Positions 1,694 to 19,932 of a DNA stretch of 20,852 bases are shown in pieces (positions within the stretch are counted from its first letter, which is position 1; the number at the start of each line of letters is the position of its first letter). Under the pieces are notes generated by a model that had not been told where the DNA came from, did no database searches, and saw only the letters and a program-made list of their open reading frames with translations. Made by a program: the position numbers and the translations under genes. The stretch lies in the IMG/VR virus record IMGVR_UViG_3300031857_001678, positions 1 to 20,852 of that record; one strand, written 5' to 3'. The stretch is from a virus.

Positions 1694-4600
1694 TCATCCA
1701 GTAAGATTATCATCTACAGATCCACTGTTATTAAATCCATACCCTCTTCTCTGAATTGTTGGGAAGGTAGATAATCCAACATCAACAGTATACCCACTTA
1801 TTCCAATAGATATAGGATTTTTTCTGACCATAGATGATAGTCTACCCCAAGAAAATTTTCCTAAATTAGATCCAATACTATTAATACCGGCAAGATTTGA
1901 AGTTGACTTAACATTTACTACTATTTCCGCATTAATTCCACTTGCAGAAATTGATGCAACCGTATAAATGTTATTTAAAAATGACGTTCCAATTCCAACA
2001 ACATCAGAATCATTTACATATATTGAAGTTAATCCTGCACCTACTGCTGTATCAAAAATAAGCACAGGATATCCAACATTTAATGTAGCAAAATTAGATA
2101 CATTTATTAACGAATATCCAGATATTTTTAAATTAAATTTAATCCCTAATGGATTTGATCCAGTTCCAGTTGTTGCCGCTATTCCGGTGATTATTCCAGA
2201 AAATCCTTGAACTGAAGCGATGTCAAAAACATTTTCAAAAGAAAATTCTGGGAATGGTGCTATTATTTTTGGTCTATTTGATATGCTATATCCTAATCCA
2301 GGATTGGATATAACAATAGGTGTTGAAAGTGATCCATTAACAACCGTTGCAAACGCTTGTGCAGTAGATCCAATACCAGTGTATGTATTTTGTGGAGAAG
2401 CTATCTTTAACTCCGCCGTCAATCCAGTGTACCCACTTCCACCATTCAAAATCGCAATAGATTGAATTGTTCCGGCAGACGAAACAACGCAAGTTGCGGA
2501 AGCTGCAACTAAAGACACCTGAGGTATGATCATTGCATTGAAGTCAATTATTTGCACACTAGATCCTGGATCATCTTCTTCATAATTAAAGAATCTGGCA
2601 TCATCAACAAAAATTTGATTATCTGCCGCAGATACACTCTTGATTATTTTTGCAGTTGGGTATATTAAAGACTCTAAAGAATTTCTAGATTTATAGAAAT
2701 ATTCTCCATTAAAAATTTTATCAGACTTTTGTTTTGTCCAACTTAATGGTTTGTACTTATTAACATCGGTTTCTATTCCCTTCCCAAAATATAAATTTGT
2801 TTCAATTTCGTCAGAAGTTTGAATGCCAACAACAGTTCTTGAATCTTGAGTTAATGATCCCAGTACATAGTTATTTTTAAACATTCGTACAGTGTCACCA
2901 GGTTTTATTGTTTCGACAACGTCCACAATAACTGTATCAATATCTCTAGTTCCTCTGTAAAAGAAGATAGAAATATTATTTTCTGCCTTTGGAGCTTCTG
3001 TAAATGCAAAAGATGATCCACCAGTAAATTGATAAGAGGTTCCTGGATCTTGAATAACGCCGTCTATAAAGATAATTAAAACTGAATTTAAATTAAGAAT
3101 GGGATCATCGGTTTCAAAAGTAAGTAGTTCACCTTTATACTTTAAAGGAAATCTTTTTCTAGATCCATTTTGCAATGATTTAATTGAATCCATATAATCT
3201 AACTCACCAAACTGCCAGGAAGAAAATGAATCAGTAAAGATATCAGTTGCAGTTAAAGTAAAATCAAATACTGGAGAAGCAAGTCCTTTTGCAGTAACTA
3301 GACCCACAGGTTTAAATACATCTCCCAGTTTAAATCCATAACCAGGTCTAGTAATTTTAAATGAAGATACTTGGAAAAGTGTTGATCCTATCCCAACATT
3401 TTCTGAAGGGGATACCTCAAGATTCATTAATAAACCAACTCCAGTTTCTGTTGTAAGACCAACTCCTATTCTAGAAACTCCAACCACAGAAAGATTCTCA
3501 TATGTTGGTTCGGGAATGATTATAGATGGATTTGCAGAATATCCAGTTCCTCCAGATACAACAGTAAATCCTGTAATTGTTCCACCCGATCCAATATTAG
3601 CCCGTATAACTGCAATATTTCCAGTATGACCAGATTGAGTTACTCCTATCGAAACCTGACCATAATAACCCGAACCGAGATAATCAGAACTGCCTATGGA
3701 TACTCCAGTAATTGATCCACTACTAATTGAAACTCTATTAGACCACGAGGTTAGGGAGGCACCGACAAGAGGTGCAAATCCCAACCCTGGAGTTGATCCC
3801 AATGAAACAATAAGACCATTACGAGGAAGTTGATTTTGATTAACATCATAGTCTGAAATTATGATCTCACTATTTGTTGAGGTTATTCCAGTAAAAACAA
3901 CTTTAGTTTCTGATCCAACTTCGGTAAAGAAATAATTATTTCCTGCATTATTTTCAGTTGTTGGAGTTTGGAATATATCATTGATGAATAATAAACTATT
4001 TCCAGTTTCAATGCCGGTTGTATTAATCCCCTGGACAGTCAATGTCATTGTTTGACCAATTCCAGTAAACTGGGATGAAATATCATCATATAGTGTGTTT
4101 GTTACATAATCCTGTCTCAAAAAGACCCGACCATTAAATTTTGATTTAATTATTGGTAAATTTGATGGAGTTTCATCTAAACTATTTTGACCCTTAGGTG
4201 GAGATATGAAATGTAGTCTACTTTTAACAATATCATATGCTCCAGTATAGACTCTAACCTCTGAAGAATCATTATGAACTGTTGCTGCACTACCCAAAAC
4301 TGCTCTAGAAACATAAACAAGATTATATGTTCCAATTCCAGTTATTTCTGAGGATGTGGATGTTCCAATACCAACTCCAATAACTTCAACATATTCATCA
4401 TCTATTTTTAAAATAGATTTTGGAAATATCGTGCTAATACCAGTTAAAGAGAAAGTTGTTGCAGATCCAGTTATTTGTCCACCATTGTAAATAAGATTAT
4501 GTGAAACTGGAGACCATTTAATAGGACTCTGGACCACTCCATCTAAAGATATAACTGTTTTTGATAACTTTTTAGTCATATCTAATTGATGAGCATTTCC

Positions 4601-7600
4601 AGATGCAGTATCTGTGAAAGTAACTCCTATACCAAGATCTGCAAAATCAGATCTAGTTGAAATTCTAAACTGATCATTGGTTATCTTTATAGCATATACA
4701 TCTGATGGTAAAATGGTTGTAACAAGTCCAACCGAATTTAAAGTTGCACCTATGCCTAATGGTACAGGTAAAGAACTTGTGAAGGTAGATGCGGGTGTAT
4801 AAACTAACTGTTCTCCGGTATTGAAAAAGTGATTTTTGATCGTAAATATTCCAGTAGAAGGATCCAAGACTGTGGGATTATTTGGATTAAATGTTTTTGT
4901 AAATATTGGAGTTCCATTAAATCTCACATCAAATGAACTTTTATCGTATCTATTTCCGTTAATAGAATCGAAGAATCTTAAATAGAAAGATTCTCTAACA
5001 TTGCCATATTCTAAAGATTCTGGATCACTTAATTCATCATAAAGATAATAGAACATTTGATTATAGCTTTGAATTTTCATTTCTCCGGTATGAGAAGGAT
5101 CTGGATAGAAATACATATCCATTGTAGATCCTCCATCTACAGATCCAAATGTTCCTATTCCCAAAGTACTACCAATTGATAAAATTGGATATTGTTTAAC
5201 AATAATATCCCCATTTCCAGATCTTATCATCATAACCTGATGCATTGCAATTGTATTTCCAATGGAAACTTTAACCAAAGATTTAATACTTGAAATTTCT
5301 TCTGTGTTTACTGACAATACTGAAGTTGATCCAGAAGAATTGACATAATTTGATTGTAATCTGCAGGTTAATTCATCACCATCTGGTTGACCAGTTGATT
5401 TGAATCTATAAGTAGAGATTCCCAAAGAAGTTGATCCAAATCCAACGAGCTTACCTCTAATTAATAAATTGTCTGAAGTAATATTGTCACATTTCAATGT
5501 TAAAACGCCAGAAGATATTGTTGAAGTAAATGTGCCAATAAAGTTGCTGGATAATTGTTCTTCTGTTGTGTCAAAATAGTATTCGGACATGTAACTATTT
5601 GTACCATCATGTGTTACATATAAATCAACATAATTAGCCTCACTACTATCAATATTTAAAATTTGCAAACTTACATATAATGCACTGGTGTCTGCGGTGT
5701 TTACGGATAAAATAGATGCCGTTGACCCAACACCCACACTGCTAGTACTTCCATTTAAATTAATAAATCCTATACTTTGAGTTCCAATTCCAACATCAAC
5801 GGATGAAAAATTTGTTTTTAGAACTTTTATATCAAGATCAGTATTATAAGGGTCTGTAGGATCTAAAGATATGGATTGCTCCCCACTACTATCAACATAT
5901 CCATAAAGATTACCAAGAACATTGCCTCCAGAATAAATGGAAGATTTTTCTAAAGTAAATATATTTTTATCACCATCGGTTAAAGTAACCAATTCCGAAA
6001 ACTGAATATTTCCACTATTTGGGTCCTTAATTTCAATTATAAAATTAGCAAAATTTTCATTATAATCAACTAAATCTACTGTAGTTGAAGTATTTGATTG
6101 CCTATTATCTAAATTTGAAAATAACGGACTAATATCATCTATTTTTAACGCTAGATTGGAGATGCAATTAATATAATTAGTTAATCTCTTAGTTTTAAAT
6201 CTAATAAATCTAGATATATTTGTATTTTCAGCAACATTGGTATCTAAAGTTAAATCAAAATTATTAATAGTATCAACTCTATTTTCTTCAGAAATATCTA
6301 AAACAATCGTTGAAACTGTTTCCCCTGGTTCTTGATCAAAAGAAGTTGAAGAACCTGAAACTTGAACATCTGCAAAGTTCTTTAATCCAATTGGATGAAG
6401 AAGTTGATTTACTGGTCCGGATAATTCATCATATGTTTTAGAACTTCTAACGGAATAAGAAAGATTTTGGAAATAATCATTATTTGGTAAAACTTGATAT
6501 TCTTCATTTAATTTACCAGTATCTTTTTCCCAATCTTTATTTTGCTTTAAAGAATAATTAATTTCTAAAAGACCTGCATTTGAATTAATATTACTAATGG
6601 TTGCCAGAACTCCAGTTAATTTTCCTTTAATTACGTCACCAACTTTTAATTGATCATATGTTCCATCAACTTTAAGAACATCTGCATCAAGACTTATAAC
6701 TCTTAAATCAATACCGACAAAAGAAGAACCTTTTTTTAATAGTAATTCTTCATTATTGACAAAGTTTGCAACTTCCTGATAAACTTTAAATTCTGGATAA
6801 TTTTTTTTATTGACGATATTAGCGTTTGGTGAAAAAGTTATTGCTATTCCGGGGTTTACAGTTAAATCTGCTAGATCAAATTCCAATAATGCTGGGCTAG
6901 ATGGGATATAATTAGTAACTGTAAAGAATTTGTAATTATAATCTTTTGAATTAAACCCTGTGCCGGTTGTACCATTTTTTAGAATCCCCTCCACAAAAAT
7001 TTCATCACCTATTGAAAATGGTGCAATATTAAATCCTAATACTGGAGTAACCAATGTGCATGTAACCACTGTCGATGCATTACTAATTTCTGAAATGGAT
7101 ATACCGTTAGTATTATTTTCCGTGTAAAGTTTATGGTTGACAGAACTCAATCCATACGGAATTTCAATAATTTCTACAGAACTAATAGAAGATGAAGATA
7201 ATTTTGGAACCAAATTGCCAGAATTAACAACTATATTGTCATATGGATCAAATATAGTAATAGAAGGTGAAGAAAGATAATTTTTTCCTCCATCCAGCAC
7301 TTCAATAGAAGTAACCCTATTTACATTTTTTAAATTTAAAATAGGTGGGATATATGCGTCAGGTCTAATAGATTTATCAACTGAATATTCATATCCTTGA
7401 TCTATGACCGTTACTTTTTCTAATTTTCCTATCGAAGATGATTTTAATTCTATAGAAGCATCAAATCCATTTTCAGATTCAATCTTTTCAAAACTAGGAA
7501 TTTTTTTGTATCCATATCCACCATAAACGATTGATATATCAGAAATTCCACCAGTGCTATTTTTTGATAGAGTAGAATATCTTAAAGAATCGCAATCGCT

Positions 7601-10600
7601 TTGAACATAGGATAATTTTTCAGGAATACCGTTTAAAGTGATGTAAAATTGTGTGCTTGCAATACCAACAGAAGTAATTCCATAATTTCCATTATATAAA
7701 CTATTTTCAAAACTTATTCTTGATGAGTATTTAATGTCCGGATCGGAACGTAAAGTGCGGTTGGTCTTTTCTAAAGAATAATATAAAAATTGTGGTAGAT
7801 TGGCAGAATAATTGATCGTTACTGAAGCGTCCGAAGAAATACCAACTGAACCAACCCCAACAACATTAAATTCATTTTCGGTTGGGGAAGATATGTATTC
7901 TTTACTGAACTTCTCATCATAATAGATTTTAAATTGATATCCATTTAAAGATGAATCACTTAAGTCAAAGAATAAATTATTATTTTTATAACTCTTTAGT
8001 GGTGGGTGAACTAAAGATAAACTATGGAGCGTCCCACCAGTTGATGAAAAATTAACAAAATTTGGCGGATTAGATGTAACATCGACAAGAGTTTCACTCA
8101 ACTTCAATGTATCATCATCTACTCTATAGACAAAGTAATTTGTTGTTGTTAATCCAGAAATATTACTTCCAATATCCGAATTATAGTAAACTTTATCACC
8201 AGTTACAAACCCATGATTTAATATTTGTATTTCATCACTTGATACATTTACATTAGAATTAGTAAAAAATTGAGGATTCGCAACAATCTGATCTAAATCA
8301 TTTTTATAAAATATTTTAACAGATGAAGAAGATCCATAACCAACAGTTAGATTAGGATTAACTTCCAATCTAATTATATCATTTGATTCTAAATTATGTG
8401 ATGTCGATAACGAAACTAATGATTTTATCTTTGATACTGTACCTGTTACTTGATTAGAATTGGTTTCAAATGAATATTCGTAATCATACCCATTAGCATT
8501 TCCAGTATTTAAGAAATATATTCCTGCGGTACTATTAACTAATGATTTGGAAGTTACAATTCCTATAGTATCTTTAGTTTTATTGATAACATAAACATCC
8601 TCACTAAGACCGGAACTCGGCAAATTGAACGGAGAATCTGCAGGATTTTTTGAAACTAGAAATCCAGATAAAGATCCTGCCGGTAAATTTAATGTTACTA
8701 AATCTCCAGTTTGGAATTTGTGATTTGGTAGATATATTGATTGTGTATAAACACTATTAGTTAATGTCTCTTCTCCAATTTGATCTGGTATTGAATTTGA
8801 AACCCCACTTGTGGTTCCTATACCAACACATTTTGAGGGATTGAAATATTCTTTATTGTCAACTTTAGAAGTAAAAAATTTAGTTTTTAATGGGAAAGTA
8901 AATCTATTTGGAACAATTTTAATCTCAGTTTTTGCTGGATGATATGCACTAGTATTTCCTCTTATAACTCGTAATACATTTTTATCTGCAAAAATGTTTA
9001 AAACTGTCAATTCTTCGTTTTCTATTTTTAGGATAGTATCTGGTTTAATATAATCAATTGCTTTTGAAACGTATATGTCAGTCACTCTTGATGAAGGGTT
9101 AAGATCAGCAAATAAGTAAATTAAATTATTCTCAACACTAATTTTATGATTATTTTGCAATCCATTAATGTAAGTTGATATTCCAGAGATTGTTATAATA
9201 TCATTATCTAATAAACTATGATAGGTGGATATAAATCCAGATACTTCTGAAGTACTATTCCAAACAAAAGTAAATGAATTATATTTTTCAACTGTTGTTT
9301 GAATTGAATTTATATCTCTGCCAAAAACTTCCGAAACTACGGCATTAAATCCCACTCCATCATCATTTTCTTGATTTTTGACAATTATTTTATCTCCTAC
9401 TTTATAATCAGATCCAGATTCGGTAATTACAAATGAATCTACTGATCCACTTGAAACTAAATCAACATTTAATCTTTGACTAGCAACTTCATTGGATTCA
9501 ATTATAAAATCATTATCTGCATATTTTTCATTAATTTTATATGGAAATGTATTTCTAATTAAACCTAAAGAATTAATATCAATAGTTTGATCTAATAGTA
9601 AATTATCCTCTACGAATAGAGATCTATAATTATTTCCAATAAAATATGGATATAGAGAAGTGTTTGTTAGTGGATTTCTTGTTGCAAAGTAAGCATACGT
9701 TCCATTTGGGAATTGTGGAGTTTTACACCATCTACCATTATAAACATCAAGATCTTCAGAATCAAAAAATACATAATCTTCGATAAAGAATCCAGTAGAA
9801 ACCCCAACTGGTCTATCTGAAATAGCACCATTAGTAATTTTATATCCCGGAACTAATGCTTTTATATCTGATTGTGGATCTTCTGGATCAGAATATCCAT
9901 ACGATCCGTATATTGGATTTCCATCATATGCCCATCCAATAATTGGTGAATGTTTAGATCCATCATCATTAAATTCTTCGTTAGCAATGACCGAATCATA
10001 TCCCAAATACCCATACTTGAGATTATTATTTGTATCTACTAAAATTTCATTTCCATATCTTCTAAAACTATCAATACGTAAATCTCTTATTTTTGGATCT
10101 AAAAATGCACCACTTCCATCAGAGATGACTTGTATTTTGGTATTTGATTCAGTATACTCTCTACCAGAGTCTATAACTACAATTGAAGATATCTTGTTAT
10201 TTGTAACAATTGCCCTTAACTTTGCGCCAAAACCATCACCAACAACTTCTAATCTAGGAACACTATAATATTCCTTTCCGGAGGATTCTATTTCAACCCT
10301 CATAATTTTACCATCAATTATTACAGGTCTAACCTCACCACCTTTTCCAGATTTAATTTTTATTAGAGGTTTCTTCTCCAAATTAATTATCGTAGATCCA
10401 TATCCAGTTCCAGACTCATATACATAAGCATCGACAATTTTTCCGCGAACTATTGGAGTTGCAGTAACTATTCCAGTAAAAGTACCTGCATAAGATACAA
10501 CGACATCTATTTTAATATCTGGATATTTAAAAATGTGATATTCAGAACCAGTACTAGCAAAGGAAACATATTTTCTTCTATCAAAATTTGAAGTATCTTC

Positions 10601-13600
10601 GGATCCTATCAAACCGGCATCAGATAATTTAAAAGAATCCTCATCTAATTTTGTGATAAAATATTCTCTGGTAGTTGATAGACCAGAAATTCCTACTCCG
10701 GTTGAATTATATTGAATTAAATCTCCAGTGTTAAAATTATGATTCGTAAATGTAACTTCACTCCTTTGCGTCGATATGCCAGAGGATTTTACAATTAATT
10801 TTCTATTCTGGTAGTTTTCACCTTGATTTACAACTTTAATATATGATAATGTTTTTTTATCTACTGTTCTAAATCTATGATTTCCAAATAAGTTTGTTGT
10901 TGTAAATCCTACCGTATTGACACCGACATTGAAATTTTCTAAAGATTCGTAAAGTTGAATTGTTTTATTATTGATTAATTTGGCGTAGTATGACCCACCA
11001 TCGACTAAAGTTCTATTTTGACTTAAATTAGATCCCCCAAAAATTCCAATACCAACATCATTTCCAACAGAACTATAAATTATTTCTTGACCATTTGAAA
11101 ATTTGTGATCTGATGTAAATGTAATAGTTTCGTTTATAATATCAATTCCGCCACCATTTTCAAGTAGTCTCCCATCAAATATTACTTCTCGATATCTAGA
11201 AGCCAAAAATGGTTGCAAAACACAATTTTTTCCATTGCCACCTACAAGATTAACGGAAATAACTCTTTGGATGTCAAAGTCTTGAGGATCAACTAAAACT
11301 TCAGAAATGGAACCACTAATAACTGGTTGGACAAAACAAGTATTCCCAATAGAAGGTGAAACTTCAACATAGGGTGGATTAATGACATCATAATTACTTC
11401 CACCGTTTAAAACATCTAATGATTTTATTGGTCCATAATAAATTTTATCTCCAGACCTTGCATTGATAATTTCAACCCCATTACACATTAATCCAAGGGT
11501 CTTAAGATCTTTTGTAGAATATTTGTCTCCTAATTGAAAATTTCTAGTTAATGGAAATTTCCTAACAATACTCTGTTGACCAATTTGATTTGATTTTTGT
11601 AACGATAATGTAAACGTATGAGATCCATCACTTTCAGATAAAGTTGATAATTTAACATAATTAGAAGATCCTATAAAAGATTTAGACTCATATAATTTAA
11701 TATTATCTTTAGAAACAACTTCGGCATAATATTCTTTACCTGAAGTTAATTCTGGAATATCCGTTATTTCTGACTGGTATACAATTGCATCTCCAGTTCT
11801 AAATGGGTTGTCCTGATCATCAGTTTCTTTTATTTTTACTGTGGTATATTTTTTGGTTACAGGATCTTGATCATTTAAAAATGTTGATGTTGCATTTTCA
11901 ATGGTTTTTTGAATTATATTTTTTTCTATGGTATATGAAGGTAGACCATTGGTGGCAACATAAAAATATTGATCATATTCATTATACACATTTAAAATAT
12001 TTGAAATTAATGCGTTATTTCCAAATTCAATGGGAACATTTGAACTATTTGCTTTTCTTAATTTTCTTCTTAAATCAAAATATCTTCCATAATATGGCTT
12101 TCCTGGATCTAATGAATCAAATGGATCTCCGTTCAAATCAGTTAAACCATTTAAGGAAATTTCCCTATCAACAAAAGTAATAGATGCAACAGTTGCAATA
12201 TTACTTTCAGAAGTTACTAGATCTTGTGTCCCCCTAATTAAAATTTCAACTTCATCTCCTAATTTTAAACTAGATTTATCAATATCACTTTCCAATACTA
12301 ATGTAGAACCGGCAATTGATTTTATTTGATATCTTGAACTTGTATTATAAATCCAACTATTTGCAAATATCTGCTTATCATTTTCATCCCTGTTAGGTAT
12401 AACTTCCCCAATACTCTTAACTCTTATGTATTCATTTTCATTCAATCCATAGATAGAATTATTTTCTTCAATACCATTAATTACACCAGTAATTCTTAAT
12501 CTAACTTCTTTTAAAGTATCTCCATTTTCATATGAAATAACGTATTGATCAATACGAATATCATCACTTGGATTTATAACTTCAGTTATATTTTCACATC
12601 CATAAAATTGATTGAGACTTTTTCCGGAATATTGAATAGTGTTGTTTCCACATATTAATGATCCCGAAAGTGGAAATCCTACTGTACTGTCAACTGAAAT
12701 TATTTCAGATCCGGGTTGAGTTTTTTCAACTACTTTGGTTTTTGCATGAATATCAAATGATCCACTAATTGAAGTCTCCTGGGTATACCCAACAAATAAT
12801 GAAAGTTTATAAAAATATTTTTGCCCCCTCCTAATAATCTCTACATTTGAAACTGCAGCCCGAGATTGGGAATCTATTGAACTATAGATTTCTTGTCCAA
12901 CTATTTTTGTTGGGTCTCCAGATAACCTTTCGGCAATTATTATCTCTTTTCTTAAAAATTCTGCGCTGGATGGTTTTAAAAGATATTTTTCCAGATCAAT
13001 AACTTTAACAGATTCGGCATATAAAACTTTAAATAATATTTTAAATGATTCTTCTGTACCTTTACTTTGATAGAAAGATCTTGCTTCCTTTATAAAGTTT
13101 GCAGCATTAATTTCCCCAGAAAAATCAATATTCTCTAATCCGGGTGTTAATGAATATTTAATCTTATTAAAAAATTCTTTTAAAAATAAAGAACTAAGAT
13201 TGGTTATTGTGGAATTGGATGAATGAGAAGAACTTTTTGATGTTGAGAATACTAAATTTTCTGGATCACTTGGATCATGATAATCTGTTACTCCACTAAA
13301 ACCACGAATACATCCTGTAAATGTATTTGTAGTTATTCCCGTATATGTAATAATTTCATCATCAATCTTAAGCAAACCATATCTTTTTGGAAATCCTTTT
13401 GTACTATTGACAACAATAGTATCATCGGATAAATCAATACTTTCTTCCAAAGAAGTATTATTAGAAATAACCTCCGGAATTAAGTAATCTAATTTTAAAT
13501 AAGAACTTAAATTGTCAAGAATATCAACCGTACCACCGGCATATTCTTGAGAAATATAATATTGTTTTAAAAATTCTGCAGCATTGGGGTTTTCGCTTAA

Positions 13601-13672
13601 AATAAATTCAGGGAGTTGATTGACAACAATATCCTGAATTTTTACTTTTACATCAAAGTTATTTTCTATCAT
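1694..13672 (-). CDS. Giant baseplate/virion structural protein in the gene 7 position
   Basis: This single uninterrupted ORF of 3,992 codons lies between gp6 and gp8, where T4 carries the wedge protein gp7 (1,032 aa). The first ~260 residues look like a wedge or tail core: a helical start, then a segment near residue 195 (FIKEARSFYQSKGTEESFKI) of a type found in phage tail proteins. The rest is beta-rich and repetitive. Family A has HxFxTGDxVxY followed by a YFVxxVDxDTxKLS-like strand, near residues 622, 857, 979, 1650, 1822 and 2949. Family B has GGxGY/SGxxY turns, near 759, 1087, 1130, 1172, 1420, 2050, 2092, 2130, 3375, 3747 and 3792. Family C has GFP..G.L.I..E.I.Y.G, near 93 and 332 with weaker copies near 1575 and 3070. 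Family D is an FIDGVxQxPxxxY-type motif near 3045, 3240 and 3537. A YHYH-type domain spans about 1236-1351. The start has AAGGA 9 nt upstream and follows gp6 after 3 nt. A gp7-equivalent role is inferred from position and N-terminus. Confidence 0.88.
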   Translation of the reverse strand: MIENNFDVKVKIQDIVVNQLPEFILSENPNAAEFLKQYYISQEYAGGTVDILDNLSSYLKLDYLIPEVISNNTSLEESIDLSDDTIVVNSTKGFPKRYGLLKIDDEIITYTGITTNTFTGCIRGFSGVTDYHDPSDPENLVFSTSKSSSHSSNSTITNLSSLFLKEFFNKIKYSLTPGLENIDFSGEINAANFIKEARSFYQSKGTEESFKILFKVLYAESVKVIDLEKYLLKPSSAEFLRKEIIIAERLSGDPTKIVGQEIYSSIDSQSRAAVSNVEIIRRGQKYFYKLSLFVGYTQETSISGSFDIHAKTKVVEKTQPGSEIISVDSTVGFPLSGSLICGNNTIQYSGKSLNQFYGCENITEVINPSDDIRIDQYVISYENGDTLKEVRLRITGVINGIEENNSIYGLNENEYIRVKSIGEVIPNRDENDKQIFANSWIYNTSSRYQIKSIAGSTLVLESDIDKSSLKLGDEVEILIRGTQDLVTSESNIATVASITFVDREISLNGLTDLNGDPFDSLDPGKPYYGRYFDLRRKLRKANSSNVPIEFGNNALISNILNVYNEYDQYFYVATNGLPSYTIEKNIIQKTIENATSTFLNDQDPVTKKYTTVKIKETDDQDNPFRTGDAIVYQSEITDIPELTSGKEYYAEVVSKDNIKLYESKSFIGSSNYVKLSTLSESDGSHTFTLSLQKSNQIGQQSIVRKFPLTRNFQLGDKYSTKDLKTLGLMCNGVEIINARSGDKIYYGPIKSLDVLNGGSNYDVINPPYVEVSPSIGNTCFVQPVISGSISEVLVDPQDFDIQRVISVNLVGGNGKNCVLQPFLASRYREVIFDGRLLENGGGIDIINETITFTSDHKFSNGQEIIYSSVGNDVGIGIFGGSNLSQNRTLVDGGSYYAKLINNKTIQLYESLENFNVGVNTVGFTTTNLFGNHRFRTVDKKTLSYIKVVNQGENYQNRKLIVKSSGISTQRSEVTFTNHNFNTGDLIQYNSTGVGISGLSTTREYFITKLDEDSFKLSDAGLIGSEDTSNFDRRKYVSFASTGSEYHIFKYPDIKIDVVVSYAGTFTGIVTATPIVRGKIVDAYVYESGTGYGSTIINLEKKPLIKIKSGKGGEVRPVIIDGKIMRVEIESSGKEYYSVPRLEVVGDGFGAKLRAIVTNNKISSIVVIDSGREYTESNTKIQVISDGSGAFLDPKIRDLRIDSFRRYGNEILVDTNNNLKYGYLGYDSVIANEEFNDDGSKHSPIIGWAYDGNPIYGSYGYSDPEDPQSDIKALVPGYKITNGAISDRPVGVSTGFFIEDYVFFDSEDLDVYNGRWCKTPQFPNGTYAYFATRNPLTNTSLYPYFIGNNYRSLFVEDNLLLDQTIDINSLGLIRNTFPYKINEKYADNDFIIESNEVASQRLNVDLVSSGSVDSFVITESGSDYKVGDKIIVKNQENDDGVGFNAVVSEVFGRDINSIQTTVEKYNSFTFVWNSTSEVSGFISTYHSLLDNDIITISGISTYINGLQNNHKISVENNLIYLFADLNPSSRVTDIYVSKAIDYIKPDTILKIENEELTVLNIFADKNVLRVIRGNTSAYHPAKTEIKIVPNRFTFPLKTKFFTSKVDNKEYFNPSKCVGIGTTSGVSNSIPDQIGEETLTNSVYTQSIYLPNHKFQTGDLVTLNLPAGSLSGFLVSKNPADSPFNLPSSGLSEDVYVINKTKDTIGIVTSKSLVNSTAGIYFLNTGNANGYDYEYSFETNSNQVTGTVSKIKSLVSLSTSHNLESNDIIRLEVNPNLTVGYGSSSSVKIFYKNDLDQIVANPQFFTNSNVNVSSDEIQILNHGFVTGDKVYYNSDIGSNISGLTTTNYFVYRVDDDTLKLSETLVDVTSNPPNFVNFSSTGGTLHSLSLVHPPLKSYKNNNLFFDLSDSSLNGYQFKIYYDEKFSKEYISSPTENEFNVVGVGSVGISSDASVTINYSANLPQFLYYSLEKTNRTLRSDPDIKYSSRISFENSLYNGNYGITSVGIASTQFYITLNGIPEKLSYVQSDCDSLRYSTLSKNSTGGISDISIVYGGYGYKKIPSFEKIESENGFDASIELKSSSIGKLEKVTVIDQGYEYSVDKSIRPDAYIPPILNLKNVNRVTSIEVLDGGKNYLSSPSITIFDPYDNIVVNSGNLVPKLSSSSISSVEIIEIPYGLSSVNHKLYTENNTNGISISEISNASTVVTCTLVTPVLGFNIAPFSIGDEIFVEGILKNGTTGTGFNSKDYNYKFFTVTNYIPSSPALLEFDLADLTVNPGIAITFSPNANIVNKKNYPEFKVYQEVANFVNNEELLLKKGSSFVGIDLRVISLDADVLKVDGTYDQLKVGDVIKGKLTGVLATISNINSNAGLLEINYSLKQNKDWEKDTGKLNEEYQVLPNNDYFQNLSYSVRSSKTYDELSGPVNQLLHPIGLKNFADVQVSGSSTSFDQEPGETVSTIVLDISEENRVDTINNFDLTLDTNVAENTNISRFIRFKTKRLTNYINCISNLALKIDDISPLFSNLDNRQSNTSTTVDLVDYNENFANFIIEIKDPNSGNIQFSELVTLTDGDKNIFTLEKSSIYSGGNVLGNLYGYVDSSGEQSISLDPTDPYNTDLDIKVLKTNFSSVDVGIGTQSIGFINLNGSTSSVGVGSTASILSVNTADTSALYVSLQILNIDSSEANYVDLYVTHDGTNSYMSEYYFDTTEEQLSSNFIGTFTSTISSGVLTLKCDNITSDNLLIRGKLVGFGSTSLGISTYRFKSTGQPDGDELTCRLQSNYVNSSGSTSVLSVNTEEISSIKSLVKVSIGNTIAMHQVMMIRSGNGDIIVKQYPILSIGSTLGIGTFGSVDGGSTMDMYFYPDPSHTGEMKIQSYNQMFYYLYDELSDPESLEYGNVRESFYLRFFDSINGNRYDKSSFDVRFNGTPIFTKTFNPNNPTVLDPSTGIFTIKNHFFNTGEQLVYTPASTFTSSLPVPLGIGATLNSVGLVTTILPSDVYAIKITNDQFRISTRSDFADLGIGVTFTDTASGNAHQLDMTKKLSKTVISLDGVVQSPIKWSPVSHNLIYNGGQITGSATTFSLTGISTIFPKSILKIDDEYVEVIGVGIGTSTSSEITGIGTYNLVYVSRAVLGSAATVHNDSSEVRVYTGAYDIVKSRLHFISPPKGQNSLDETPSNLPIIKSKFNGRVFLRQDYVTNTLYDDISSQFTGIGQTMTLTVQGINTTGIETGNSLLFINDIFQTPTTENNAGNNYFFTEVGSETKVVFTGITSTNSEIIISDYDVNQNQLPRNGLIVSLGSTPGLGFAPLVGASLTSWSNRVSISSGSITGVSIGSSDYLGSGYYGQVSIGVTQSGHTGNIAVIRANIGSGGTITGFTVVSGGTGYSANPSIIIPEPTYENLSVVGVSRIGVGLTTETGVGLLMNLEVSPSENVGIGSTLFQVSSFKITRPGYGFKLGDVFKPVGLVTAKGLASPVFDFTLTATDIFTDSFSSWQFGELDYMDSIKSLQNGSRKRFPLKYKGELLTFETDDPILNLNSVLIIFIDGVIQDPGTSYQFTGGSSFAFTEAPKAENNISIFFYRGTRDIDTVIVDVVETIKPGDTVRMFKNNYVLGSLTQDSRTVVGIQTSDEIETNLYFGKGIETDVNKYKPLSWTKQKSDKIFNGEYFYKSRNSLESLIYPTAKIIKSVSAADNQIFVDDARFFNYEEDDPGSSVQIIDFNAMIIPQVSLVAASATCVVSSAGTIQSIAILNGGSGYTGLTAELKIASPQNTYTGIGSTAQAFATVVNGSLSTPIVISNPGLGYSISNRPKIIAPFPEFSFENVFDIASVQGFSGIITGIAATTGTGSNPLGIKFNLKISGYSLINVSNFATLNVGYPVLIFDTAVGAGLTSIYVNDSDVVGIGTSFLNNIYTVASISASGINAEIVVNVKSTSNLAGINSIGSNLGKFSWGRLSSMVRKNPISIGISGYTVDVGLSTFPTIQRRGYGFNNSGSVDDNLTG
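2270..11410 (-). repeat. Degenerate GGxGY protein repeats encoded in the giant gene
   Basis: A short motif, hydrophobic-x-V-x-x-G-G-x-x-Y-x-x-x-P-x-I-x-I/V, recurs at least eleven times. Examples are VLNGGSNYDVINPPYVEV near residue 759, VSGGTGYSANPSIIIPEP near 3375 and LNGGSGYTGL near 3747. Some copies lie only ~40 residues apart (1087, 1130, 1172). The same motif occurs twice in gp8, so the family crosses gene boundaries. Confidence 0.7.
4580..11810 (-). repeat. Degenerate HxFxTGD protein repeats encoded in the giant gene
   Basis: At least six coding segments give a strand-turn-strand pattern: H-x-F/L-x-T-G-D/E-x-V-x-Y, a variable loop often holding GISGL or GLTTT, then Y-F/Y-x-x-x-V-D/N-x-D-T/S-x-K/Q-L-S/Y. 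Clear copies are HNFNTGDLIQYN near residue 979, HGFVTGDKVYYN near 1822 and HFFNTGEQLVYTP near 2949; NPFRTGDAIVYQ near 622, HKFSNGQEIIYSS near 857 and HKFQTGDLVTLN near 1650 are more divergent. The copies are dispersed, not tandem, and the DNA has diverged, so this is an old modular expansion. Confidence 0.7.
9618..9966 (-). other. YHYH-type domain inside the giant baseplate protein
   Basis: Residues about 1236-1351 contain SPIIGWAYDGNPIYGSYGY, then a VSTGFFIEDYVF segment, LDVYNGRWCKTPQFPNGTYA with an aromatic YFATRNP, and finally YPYFIGNNYRSLF. The G-W-A-x-D-G-x-P-I-Y-G core and the N-G-R ... P-x-G-T-Y-A-Y-F part match the YHYH family (PF14240, by recall), usually found in secreted bacterial proteins of uncertain function. 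It differs clearly from the surrounding beta repeats. Its role in the virion is unknown; surface or ligand contact is a guess. Confidence 0.65.
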
Positions 13673-18461: not shown

Positions 18462-18649
18462 TGAGATGAATTGAAACTCAAATCTTTGCTGAAGAGTACT
18501 TTTTCATAACTTATGTCATGTTTTTCGACTCCACCAATTACACTGATTAAATTGTTCAGTGTGCTCCAGGTTTGGTGAAATTCCTCTTCTGATAGAGAGT
18601 GATAGATGCAATTATTTTTGTGATAGACATGATATCTTATTTCACTCAT
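18458..18649 (-). CDS. Small protein, paralogue of the 70-aa YxxxxNxxxIYxxLSExEF family, 63 aa
   Basis: The product starts MSEIRYHVYHKNNCIYHSLS and continues EEEFHQTWSTLNNLIS. The pattern Y-x-V/I-x-x-N-x-x-x-I-Y-x-x-L-S-E-x-E-F/Y is shared with the 70-aa protein at 17438-17650; the C-terminal halves differ. Function is unknown. It overlaps the upstream 58-aa gene by 8 nt (ATGAGTGA), so translation is coupled, and its stop codon lies within the -35 of the next promoter. Confidence 0.78.
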   Translation of the reverse strand: MSEIRYHVYHKNNCIYHSLSEEEFHQTWSTLNNLISVIGGVEKHDISYEKVLFSKDLSFNSSH

Positions 18650-18818
18650 ATTTGTGCTCTCTCAATATAAGTTCGTTTCCTTCAACGGTAAAATTAATCG
18701 GAGTTTCTTCGTACCAACTGATTTCATTGACGATCCACTCTGGAATAATAACATGATATTCTCCCGTAATTGGATCGACTTCTATGAACTTAATTTCTTC
18801 GCCGGATTTTTTTTTCAT
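18642..18818 (-). CDS. 58-aa protein resembling AbrB/MazE swapped-hairpin DNA-binding domains
   Basis: Read from ATG 18818 (MKKKSGEEIKFIEVDPITGE) to TGA 18644-18642. The central YHVIIPEWIVNEISWYEETP, then INFTVEGNELILRE, follows the SpoVT/AbrB pattern V-x-I-P-x-x-I-x-x-x-h, a polar loop, a strand, then x-G-x-x-h-h-h. Small proteins of this family bind DNA as dimers, often as antitoxins or transition-state regulators. No toxin gene is seen next to it, so a regulator is more likely than an antitoxin. The similarity is at motif level only and the family call is an inference. It overlaps the next gene by 8 nt and is the last gene before the compositional break. Confidence 0.72.
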   Translation of the reverse strand: MKKKSGEEIKFIEVDPITGEYHVIIPEWIVNEISWYEETPINFTVEGNELILREHKYE

Positions 18819-18855: not shown

Positions 18856-18931
18856 GCGAAATTTTTTTTTATGTGAGTGTTATATTTAACTCGCTTCCGT
18901 AACACTTTGTAGGTTAGGGTAGTTATGCGTT

Positions 18932-18937
18932 TTTATA
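18932..18937 (-). promoter_or_regulatory. Candidate -10 (TATAAA) of a sixth array-type promoter/leader
   Basis: TATAAA is followed by 26 nt that are almost free of G (AACGCATAACTACCCTAACC then TACAAA) and then a GTG at 18905. The -10 to start distance equals that of three array genes. The GTG opens a Lys/Arg-rich 38-codon frame running through the A+T-rich tract and out of frame into the 58-aa gene; that frame is probably not a gene. The promoter may instead serve the 58-aa gene with a ~110-nt leader. Confidence 0.4.
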
Positions 18938-19012
18938 ACCGCGCCCCGCCGGGGACATAACAAACGCCCCCCAATTAACTGCTGATTCACGAACGAAGGC
19001 ACTGGGGCAGGG

Positions 19013-19186
19013 TCACCCCCGCACTTCGTCAGAATGAACCTCAGCGAACTGTGCCGCCCATACGGTGGCAGGGATGCCCACGGGGTAAACCATAGCGGGA
19101 TTCTCATTCCAGGCGCTGCCGTCGTTACGGTAGGAGACCCACACGGTCTGGCGGTCCTTGAGGCGGGTGGCAGGGGAGAGGCGCAT
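19013..19186 (-). CDS. Array mini-gene 4, hypothetical protein, 57 aa
   Basis: I start it at ATG 19186 (MRLSPATRLKDRQTVWVSYR) because the frame's apparent N-terminal extension (MLQLTQFNQPPP) is the translated promoter and leader, identical in the next unit. The product then has NDGSAWNENPAMVYPVG and an Ala-rich helix-like stretch, WAAQFAEV. No family recognised; no signal peptide, membrane segment or cysteine. The G+C-rich codon usage is unlike the A+T-rich neighbours. The stop is written GGGGG-TGA-CCCTGCCCC, as in the other units. An alternative frame at 18886-19107 overlaps it and is less convincing. Confidence 0.6.
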   Translation of the reverse strand: MRLSPATRLKDRQTVWVSYRNDGSAWNENPAMVYPVGIPATVWAAQFAEVHSDEVRG

Positions 19187-19188
19187 CG

Positions 19189-19224
19189 GAGGCGGTTGGT
19201 TGAACTGGGTTAATTGTAGCACGT
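19189..19224 (-). repeat. 36-bp direct repeat, copy 1 (promoter plus leader)
   Basis: This segment is identical over 36 bases to 19426-19461. It holds ACGTGCTACAAT and the leader TAACCCAGTTCAACCAACCG followed by CCTC, ending 2 nt before the start codon. Outside the repeat the two genes are unrelated, so it is a shared regulatory module, not a gene duplication in full. Confidence 0.9.
19213..19221 (-). promoter_or_regulatory. Extended -10 promoter (TGCTACAAT) of array mini-gene 4
   Basis: TGC-TACAAT matches an extended -10 (TGNTAnAAT). The -10 ends 26 nt before the ATG at 19186. No well-placed -35 exists: TTGACC occurs upstream but with a 20-bp spacer. The whole element is within the 36-bp direct repeat. 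Confidence 0.62.
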
Positions 19225-19235
19225 AACGGGGCAGG

Positions 19236-19250
19236 GGGGGTCAATCCCCC
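19236..19250 (-). terminator. Stop-codon hairpin of mini-gene 3
   Basis: The minus strand reads GGGGG-ATTGA-CCCCC: a 5-bp G/C stem with the TGA stop in and beside the loop. There is no U-tract, so it is not a classical intrinsic terminator; it could pause polymerase or stabilise the 3' end. Confidence 0.4.
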
Positions 19251-19423
19251 ATCGCTTCCTTCAATGCCTCAAACGCTGCCATCCAATGGGCGGCGTCGGC
19301 GTGTTTGCCAGCAAGGCGCTCATCCACGGCAAAGCACAGCACGGCGGTTCGGATGGTGCCCCAAGTCCCGTCGGGCAGGGTGAGGGTGGTAAGGTTCTCA
19401 GCGTTCCAGGGGGAGGCGGTCAT
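19241..19423 (-). CDS. Array mini-gene 3, hypothetical protein, 60 aa
   Basis: The start is ATG 19423 (MTASPWNAENLTTLTLPDGT), two nt after the direct repeat; the longer frame beginning in the repeat is translated leader. After WGTIRTAVLCFAVDERLAG it has a helix-like segment rich in Ala (ADAAHWMAAFEALKEAMGD). No family recognised. The stop lies in a GGGGG-ATTGA-CCCCC inverted repeat at 19236-19250, next to the promoter of mini-gene 4. Composition is G+C-rich. Confidence 0.62.
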   Translation of the reverse strand: MTASPWNAENLTTLTLPDGTWGTIRTAVLCFAVDERLAGKHADAAHWMAAFEALKEAMGD

Positions 19424-19425
19424 GA

Positions 19426-19461
19426 GAGGCGGTTGGTTGAACTGGGTTAATTGTAGCACGT
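19426..19461 (-). repeat. 36-bp direct repeat, copy 2 (promoter plus leader)
   Basis: Identical over 36 bases to 19189-19224; centre-to-centre distance is 237 bp. It carries the extended -10 TGCTACAAT and leader of mini-gene 3. The third array promoter (19662-19670) keeps the core ATTGTAGCACGTAACGGGG (plus strand) in common with copy 1 but has a different leader. Confidence 0.9.
19450..19458 (-). promoter_or_regulatory. Extended -10 promoter (TGCTACAAT) of array mini-gene 3
   Basis: TGC-TACAAT ends 26 nt before the ATG at 19423, the same spacing as for mini-gene 4. CTGACC, which includes the stop of mini-gene 2, lies 16 bp upstream and could act as a weak -35. Confidence 0.62.
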
Positions 19462-19473
19462 CGGGGGGCGGGG

Positions 19474-19638
19474 TCAGACCATATGGTCCGCCAGACCCCA
19501 GTTAATCACAATCAGGTCGGGGTTCAGGCGAGCGCAGGTGTCCCATGCCTGCTGGGCGGTTTCTGCCATGTAGGACAGGGTGACCTGCCGACGCTGGCGA
19601 GTGTGGAAACCGGTGAACAGGAAACTGGATTCGGTCAT
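19474..19638 (-). CDS. Array mini-gene 2, hypothetical protein, 54 aa
   Basis: The start is ATG 19638 (MTESSFLFTGFHTRQRRQVT); the in-frame extension MLQYSQPTPPP is translated leader. The segment LSYMAETAQQAWDTCARLNP resembles the strand-helix 'xxAxTxxxAWxxAxxL' unit of many tiny phage proteins, and its A-x-x-AWD-x-C-x-x-L core recurs in mini-gene 1. It ends DLIVINWGLADHMV. Function unknown. The last codons include a 12-bp palindrome, GACCATATGGTC (19477-19488), immediately before the TGA. Confidence 0.65.
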   Translation of the reverse strand: MTESSFLFTGFHTRQRRQVTLSYMAETAQQAWDTCARLNPDLIVINWGLADHMV

Positions 19639-19661
19639 GGGGGGGGGTGTCGGTTGAGAGT

Positions 19662-19670
19662 ATTGTAGCA
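19662..19670 (-). promoter_or_regulatory. Extended -10 promoter (TGCTACAAT) of array mini-gene 2
   Basis: TGC-TACAAT ends 23 nt before the ATG at 19638. Its upstream side, CGTTACG, equals that of mini-gene 4. The leader (ACTCTCAACCGACACC then a run of C) has a single G. Confidence 0.62.
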
Positions 19671-19682
19671 CGTAACGGGGGG

Positions 19683-19844
19683 TCAGCGCCCGTCAGTGTA
19701 GTCTCCGATGATGACCCCGTTGCAGCGGACCTGAGCGTACCCGTACTCTTCAGACAGATCCAGGCAGAGGTCCCATGCACGGTCGGCATCGGTGGTAGTG
19801 TTCTCCCAGGGAGCGGCGGGGCAGATCACGTCAAGGCGGGTCAT
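19683..19844 (-). CDS. Array mini-gene 1, hypothetical protein, 53 aa
   Basis: Read from ATG 19844 (MTRLDVICPAAPWENTTTDA) to TGA 19685-19683. The centre is DRAWDLCLDLSEEYGYAQVR, then CNGVIIGDYTDGR, a helix-to-strand arrangement with a possible hairpin end. The A-x-x-AWD-x-C-x-x-L stretch matches mini-gene 2, suggesting distant paralogues or a common fold. Function unknown. Its promoter follows a 16-nt G/C hairpin. The stop reads GGGCGC-TGA-CCCCCC, matching the array style. Confidence 0.65.
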   Translation of the reverse strand: MTRLDVICPAAPWENTTTDADRAWDLCLDLSEEYGYAQVRCNGVIIGDYTDGR

Positions 19845-19869
19845 TTGGTTCGTTTGCTTTGGTTCCCTT

Positions 19870-19875
19870 AGTATA
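19870..19875 (-). promoter_or_regulatory. -10 promoter (TATACT) of array mini-gene 1
   Basis: TATACT ends 25 nt before the ATG at 19844. The leader reads AAGGGAACCAAAGCAAACGA then ACCAA. There is no recognisable -35; the expected place is filled by a GGGGGT-TCTG-ACCCCC hairpin. Confidence 0.58.
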
Positions 19876-19891
19876 GGGGGTCAGAACCCCC
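19876..19891 (-). repeat. G/C hairpin abutting the mini-gene 1 promoter
   Basis: A 6-bp perfect stem (GGGGGT/ACCCCC) with a 4-nt loop. The minus strand reads ...TCTGACCCCC directly before TATACT. TGACCCC is the word that ends each array gene, so this may be the 3' remnant of a lost unit. Confidence 0.45.
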
Positions 19892-19902
19892 CCAAGCGGA
19901 AA

Positions 19903-19932
19903 CCCTGTGCCAGTGGTTTGACTGGCACAGGG
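19903..19932 (-). terminator. Strong hairpin terminator after the 70-aa gene
   Basis: CCCTGTGCCAGT (19903-19914) and ACTGGCACAGGG (19921-19932) make a perfect 12-bp stem with a 6-nt loop. It starts 18 nt after the stop of the gene at 19950 on the minus strand and is followed there by TTTCC. The U-run is short, but the stem is the strongest in the window. Confidence 0.72.

Follow-up and report, generated by a model that had tools for sequence, protein, structure and literature searches.

The 20,852-bp virus fragment from IMG/VR (the window) carries four consecutive small genes on the minus strand, as had been predicted from the sequence (Table 1). Pfam identifies speD and gp25 on the same contig, a 252-aa gene shows a weak likeness to glycosyltransferases, and baseplate and tail genes come next. 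This gene order matches that of S-SRM01 (Kyanoviridae). The window also contains an unusually long single ORF of 3,992 aa (1694-13672, minus strand). Judged from its position, it probably encodes a structural protein; at this place in S-SRM01 lies a gene of 11.7 kb for a virion structural protein.

Table 1. Features of the small-gene array and its boundaries, in window coordinates.
Feature	Position	Strand	Remark
Small gene that follows the array (phrog_661)	18642..18818	-	Locus marker
Conserved non-coding element GTTATAAAAACGCATAACTACCCTAACCTACAAAGTGTTACGGAAGCGAGTTAAATATAAC	18880..18940	-	Closes the array; right-hand anchor
Unit 4 (u4) ORF, 57 aa	19013..19186	-	Biggest cassette family, with 40 distinct proteins; in many cases the final unit
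Unit 4 control module: TGCTACAAT + TAACCCAGTTCA-type leader	19187..19221	-	TGCTACAAT at 19221-19213
Unit 3 (u3) ORF, 60 aa	19241..19423	-	
Unit 3 control module: TGCTACAAT + TAACCCAGTTCA-type leader	19424..19458	-	TGCTACAAT at 19458-19450
Unit 2 (u2) ORF, 54 aa	19474..19638	-	
Unit 2 control module: extended -10 TGCTACAAT + ACTCTCAACC-type leader	19639..19670	-	TGCTACAAT at 19670-19662
Unit 1 (u1) ORF, 53 aa	19683..19844	-	Homologues: S-CREM1, P-RSM1, S-RSM4, other cyanophages
Unit 1 -10, TATACT	19870..19875	-	Relatives here: TATGAT, TATACT or TACAAT
GC hairpin GGGGGGGTTCTGACCCCC, directly upstream of unit 1 -10	19876..19893	-	
12-bp perfect inverted repeat, loop 6, then TTTCC	19903..19932	-	Terminator-like; z -4.4

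Each of the four genes has its own -10 element, as the original prediction held: TATACT in unit 1 and TGCTACAAT in units 2, 3 and 4. These three copies of TGCTACAAT are the only ones in the window, compared to 0.20 expected, and none of 100 shuffled sequences contained three or more. The predicted distance of 23-26 nt from the -10 to the ATG was found in all four units, which likewise lack a Shine-Dalgarno sequence and end in TGACCC(C) stops. The G-run that had been noted beside TGACCCC pairs with it to form a GC hairpin (GGGG..TGACCCC), of which TGACCCC is the 3' arm. The control regions had furthermore been described as nearly identical. This is true of units 3 and 4 (84% identity over 64 nt), whereas unit 2 has the -10 in common with them but the leader ACTCTCAACCGACACC, and unit 1 has a different putative promoter. 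The encoded proteins fall into four different families in a BLAST clustering.

The control region can be described as a module of 27 nt that consists of an extended -10 without a -35, a conserved start site in a region that reads TCTCTCA or variants of it, and a C/A-rich leader without a Shine-Dalgarno sequence. A 27-nt weight matrix of the module gave 0 matches per Mb in GC-matched random sequence. We found the module in 298 distinct contexts, in front of 66 families of small ORFs, at loci that were scored with the weight matrix and were partly recruited by the module pattern. Protein searches recruited 30 viral loci for u4 and 10 for u3, and the u4 set serves as an independent check. In an alignment of 46 families, which had been selected for the -10 and the leader but not for the -35 region, the expected start site (7 nt after the -10) is an A in all 46, the leaders are 21-30 nt long and rich in C and A, only two leaders contain GGAG, GAGG or AGGA of any kind, and the -35 region is not conserved. 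Canonical sigma-70 promoters with a -35 were thus rejected. A simple sigma-70 scan showed no clear excess of promoters, because the module has no -35.

The stop codon upstream of the module is TGA in 215 of 236 module contexts, and a GGGG..CCCC hairpin surrounds the stop in 108 of them compared to 19 in shuffled sequences. TTTT follows in only 2 of the 236 contexts, and we thus rejected intrinsic terminators at unit ends; the one strong candidate in all is the inverted repeat before unit 1, which separates the upstream genes from the array. The modules resemble extended -10 promoters that are fused to the ends of genes; the hairpin is optional and does not look like a canonical terminator. Each unit had been proposed to be a promoter-gene-end cassette. 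The promoter-like module and the gene fit this proposal, but the end part is weaker: roughly every second unit has the GC hairpin, which lacks a U-tract, and in 41 of the 236 contexts the module abuts the upstream stop, with 2 nt between the stop and the extended -10.

Some ORFs in the ORF list (65-72 aa) start at a GTG that derives from the module. A coding leader that begins at this GTG was rejected, since the frame from GTG to ATG is kept in 18 of 46 families, which is about the chance level. Further forms of the module, CCTGTAGAAT and CTATACTGATCTCAGTTCA, share its leader; they lie upstream of unit 4 (loci L149-L151 and L136-L141) and in the arrays of L179 and L203. One gene can carry different module forms in different phages (promoter swapping). 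In addition, a pair of small genes lies behind TGCTAYAAT/TGATATAAT with leader repeats CTCGACGAGC (L145 3381-3757, L149 1400-1779); this pair lies in AT-rich sequence outside the GC island described below.

Together with the original prediction, it had been suggested to search cyanophage and cyanobacterial metagenomes for the module pattern and to compare the unit content between relatives; with viral contigs, both gave a positive result. Viral contigs yielded 70 stretches with an exact copy of the 21-mer TGCTACAATTCTCTCAGTTCA and 16 with the TAACCCAGTTCA form. The same control sequence lies upstream of u3 and u4 homologues and of many unrelated ORFs. A -10-like hexamer precedes the ATG at much the same distance in all 30 u4 homologues that were recruited by protein, where the promoter was not used; this is mostly TGCTACAAT and in some cases TAGAAT, TAGACT, TAGGAT or TATAAT. 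Several copies of u1 and u4 have other -10 forms without TG, and therefore the module is not universal. Head-to-tail arrays contain up to 16 modules, and the window is the small end of a larger system. With a looser pattern, we did not find the module in cyanobacterial genomes among 257 Gb of bacterial and archaeal contigs. The two matches obtained, in one Lachnospiraceae MAG and one Prevotellaceae MAG, are about the number expected by chance according to our own estimate, and a host origin of the module was rejected.

The array is carried by T4-like cyanophages (Kyanoviridae), mostly freshwater or estuarine, a label that we presume from the S-SRM01 and S-CREM1 relatives and from the types of sample. 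The array loci are metagenomic contigs, and S-SRM01, whose host is Synechococcus KCZYC6, is the sole cultured phage found with the module, of which it has one divergent copy (-10 TATGAT). Behind this copy lies an unannotated ORF of 100 aa (L249 12301-12809; NC_070963, approximately 90.3-90.8 kb), which appears winged-helix-like by eye and is followed by an unannotated unit 4 homologue (SPASNLQTRQIVWV). The paper describing S-SRM01 does not use the terms promoter, cassette or hyperplastic.

The array occupies a single locus. In all 92 loci where the flank of the array is visible, the phrog_661 gene lies on the same strand, 0.4-3.4 kb downstream of the last module. Allowing up to three mismatches, the 21-mer forms one cluster per contig and is not found outside the locus in contigs of up to 205 kb; the reversed-pattern control gave 0 matches. 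The non-coding element that closes the array is followed by an AT-rich region with the promoter of the next gene. The element is kept in most of 56 aligned loci and has partial matches of 80-88% identity in the marine P-SSM5, S-RIM32 and AG-345-F15; it has no match in Rfam. Possibly, it is an origin, a promoter or an RNA element at the boundary between early and late genes.

Furthermore, the array forms a GC island (19013-19880). Its GC content is 59-63% compared to about 30-43% in the downstream genes, and GC3 is 0.74-0.76 in the four units compared to 0.15-0.25 in the gp6-like gene, gp25, speD and the giant gene. In most relatives the GC content of the array is also around 0.60, in otherwise AT-rich Kyanoviridae contigs. 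Possible causes are that early genes use codons as the host does or that frequent exchange brings about conversion. The u1 homologue of S-CREM1, which infects the high-GC strain CB0101, is 87% identical and has a GC3 of 0.40, which argues against simple matching to the host.

The ORFs of the cassettes are under purifying selection, with a median dN/dS of 0.07-0.63 (mostly 0.13-0.45) in 20 families. The four units of the window have no match in Pfam or PADLOC and match only PHROGs without an assigned function; no known RNA family was matched in Rfam. For u1, the AF2 model shows a beta-beta-alpha-beta-beta fold (pLDDT 91), and the confident Foldseek matches are uncharacterised phage proteins alone. 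A Dmd-like antitoxin was rejected for u1, as the matches to Dmd of RB69 and T4 are non-significant (E 0.19-0.74, TM 0.5-0.6) and no sequence match was found; it serves as a lead only. The model of u4 has low confidence (pLDDT 71). The products may have an auxiliary role in host takeover, and the originally suggested functions as effectors, anti-defence proteins or regulators are putative. In S-CREM1 and P-RSM1, the u1 homologues are located in tightly packed gene runs, have no module and show a GC3 of 0.36-0.40. Thus, the cassette form is not required for the u1 gene.

When comparing the arrays of relatives, we find that units are gained and lost one at a time, in line with the modular array that had been proposed. 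For instance, u2 is absent in L126, L128 and L129, both u2 and u3 are absent in L130, L157 has a different last unit in place of u4 and another leader in front of the same u2 ORF, and L161 and L162 contain three additional units, which brings their arrays to seven modules. A single long gene in place of the array, which had been named as one of two outcomes that would contradict it, was not seen among the relatives compared. L126 and L130 are exactly one cassette apart, and the crossover lies within a 37-nt identical stretch of the module. Similarly, u2 is the one unit that distinguishes the window from L126, and here the junction falls in the TGACCCCC/module region.

An automated comparison showed that such junctions are concentrated at the modules. 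Among 36 indel junctions, 22 fall within module intervals, which make up 20.8% of the arrays (binomial 1.7e-7 when assuming independence, although the junctions come from related arrays and are thus not independent), whereas 14 lie away from scored modules. The relative order of families agrees in 431 of 461 comparisons compared to a mean of 329 when shuffled (41 distinct arrays, which are related and not independent), and tandem copies of one family occur. Unit content is thus fluid but the order is mostly kept, and units do not shuffle freely. As the order is conserved, we rejected insertion at one end of the array.

We consider it quite probable that the locus is an accessory array in which the repeated control modules double as recombination seams and which is read early by the host RNA polymerase. 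Each unit would be a small protein gene behind its own module, made up of the extended -10 TGCTACAAT, the start region and a leader of ~20 nt. All units would be transcribed from the onset of infection by the unmodified host RNA polymerase with its main sigma factor, and no unit would depend on its neighbours because each would have its own promoter. Early timing is suggested by the type of promoter and by what is known of transcription in cyanomyoviruses, which are without alt, modA and modB and whose early genes are thought to be transcribed by the host polymerase in its unmodified form, together with a sigma-70 factor (PMC2984593). Because the modules hardly differ among units or among phages, they would serve as homology tracts, and crossovers in them could delete, duplicate or exchange whole units while the junction of promoter and gene would always stay intact. 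We infer homologous recombination as the cause of the unit differences. A mostly fixed family order is expected if recombination occurs at matching places and not by random insertion.

This reading may be taken further, as a rather doubtful extension: the locus would be a recombinase-free cassette locus of freshwater Kyanoviridae with the promoter-leader module as the exchange site, where the strand-exchange machinery of the phage swaps one-gene units in co-infection out of a common pool that comprises 66 or more small-protein families, and where frequent exchange or conversion holds ~60% GC in a genome of ~35% GC. About equally improbable, in our estimate, is an ordinary operon of small genes with many internal early promoters, whose control region is kept for its promoter and leader function and whose content changes by generic illegitimate recombination or mispackaging, and where modules do not guide exchange. 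Variable small-gene regions are general in T4-like cyanophages, and homologues lie in dense runs after the helicase gene in S-CREM1, P-RSM1 and S-IOM18. In S-PM2, mispackaging has been put forward as the cause of ORFanage loss, and PeSL-mediated acquisition was judged unlikely there (PMC4503421). The 14 junctions away from scored modules also fit such an operon. However, the control regions are nearly identical over 21-64 nt, leader included, which is more than an extended -10 requires; furthermore, indel junctions are concentrated at the modules, and differences of one unit have both ends in control regions.

It is very unlikely that a cassette-moving platform similar to an integron is at work, in which an enzyme of the phage or of a co-infecting one recognises the module or the end element and inserts or excises units. 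No recombinase was recognised beside the array in the window, the order is conserved as opposed to insertion at one end, and the modules resemble promoters in one orientation and were not found outside the locus in long contigs; these findings stand against the single locus, the conserved right-hand boundary element, the unit structure and the large pool of unrelated cassettes, which would suit such a platform. Least likely of all are arrays of regulatory RNAs or binding sites with incidental ORFs, which the strong conservation of the non-coding modules and GC hairpins might suggest: the dN/dS estimates, the TGA stop architecture and the confident fold of u1 point to proteins, and Rfam gave no match.

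With recombination at the modules of an early-read array, a phage could gain, lose or duplicate small genes while the control of the others stays intact. This provides a concrete and testable mechanism for the gain, loss and reordering of orphan small genes in T4-like cyanophages; how freshwater-type ORFs are exchanged was left open for S-PM2 (PMC4503421). The module is furthermore a handle for collecting accessory genes of cyanophages by promoter instead of homology, where one motif led to 66 ORF families. Many array contigs and the cultured S-SRM01 make reporter, RNA and recombination tests feasible.

The promoter early stem-loops (PeSLs) of T4-type phages, which are named in PMC4503421, are the nearest known counterpart of the array. 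They have reportedly been described by Arbiol et al. 2010 and Comeau et al. 2014. Like the modules of the array, PeSLs are repeated among the accessory genes of variable regions; each joins an early promoter to a stem-loop, and they are held to shuffle genes. The array lies in such a variable region of a T4-like phage, with speD, gp25 and baseplate genes as neighbours, and recombination at its cassettes is suggested by comparison, with junctions enriched at modules and the order mostly kept. In contrast, the array promoter is predicted to be an extended -10 only, at a fixed distance and without a -35, and the leader up to the ATG belongs to the module. A terminator joined to the promoter was not found in the 236 contexts (hairpin in 108 with 19 expected, TTTT in 2, stop abutted in 41); close to half of the units have the stem-loop, which has no U-tract. 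The array furthermore consists of single small genes in dense tandem at one locus, with kept order and in a GC-rich island. It appears to work like a PeSL, but we do not file it as one because the terminator, a defining part in the PeSL description, was not found.

Integron cassettes each have an attC site, are linked to a tyrosine recombinase and are mostly promoterless. In the array, each unit has a promoter-like module, the order is conserved and no integrase was recognised among the ORFs of the window. The SAS/ESAS elements of cluster K mycobacteriophages are similar in that a short conserved sequence precedes the start codons of different gene families, with an inverted repeat in about half of the cases (PMC3203893). 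However, SAS is a 13-bp sequence with a proposed role in translation initiation and pairing to rRNA (PMC3203893), whereas the module is a putative promoter with a leader that has no Shine-Dalgarno sequence; the sequences are unlike, and the array leaders do not show the 13-bp consensus with Shine-Dalgarno-like pairing. The class I intergenic repeats of halovirus HF2 likewise recur within a virus at positions conserved among relatives, and they were shown to be promoters, but these are 58-bp archaeal promoters that are spread over ~33 kb and give long transcripts (PMC8707807), whereas the array consists of one-gene tandem units. Lastly, the ORFanage of S-PM2 is likewise a cyanomyovirus region of small orphan genes; it is costly in the laboratory, and related ORFs are enriched in freshwater and hypersaline samples and are rarely syntenic (PMC4503421, PMC2984593). 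Few early promoters or stem-loops have been reported for the ORFanage and its mechanism was left open, whereas the array is dense in modules.
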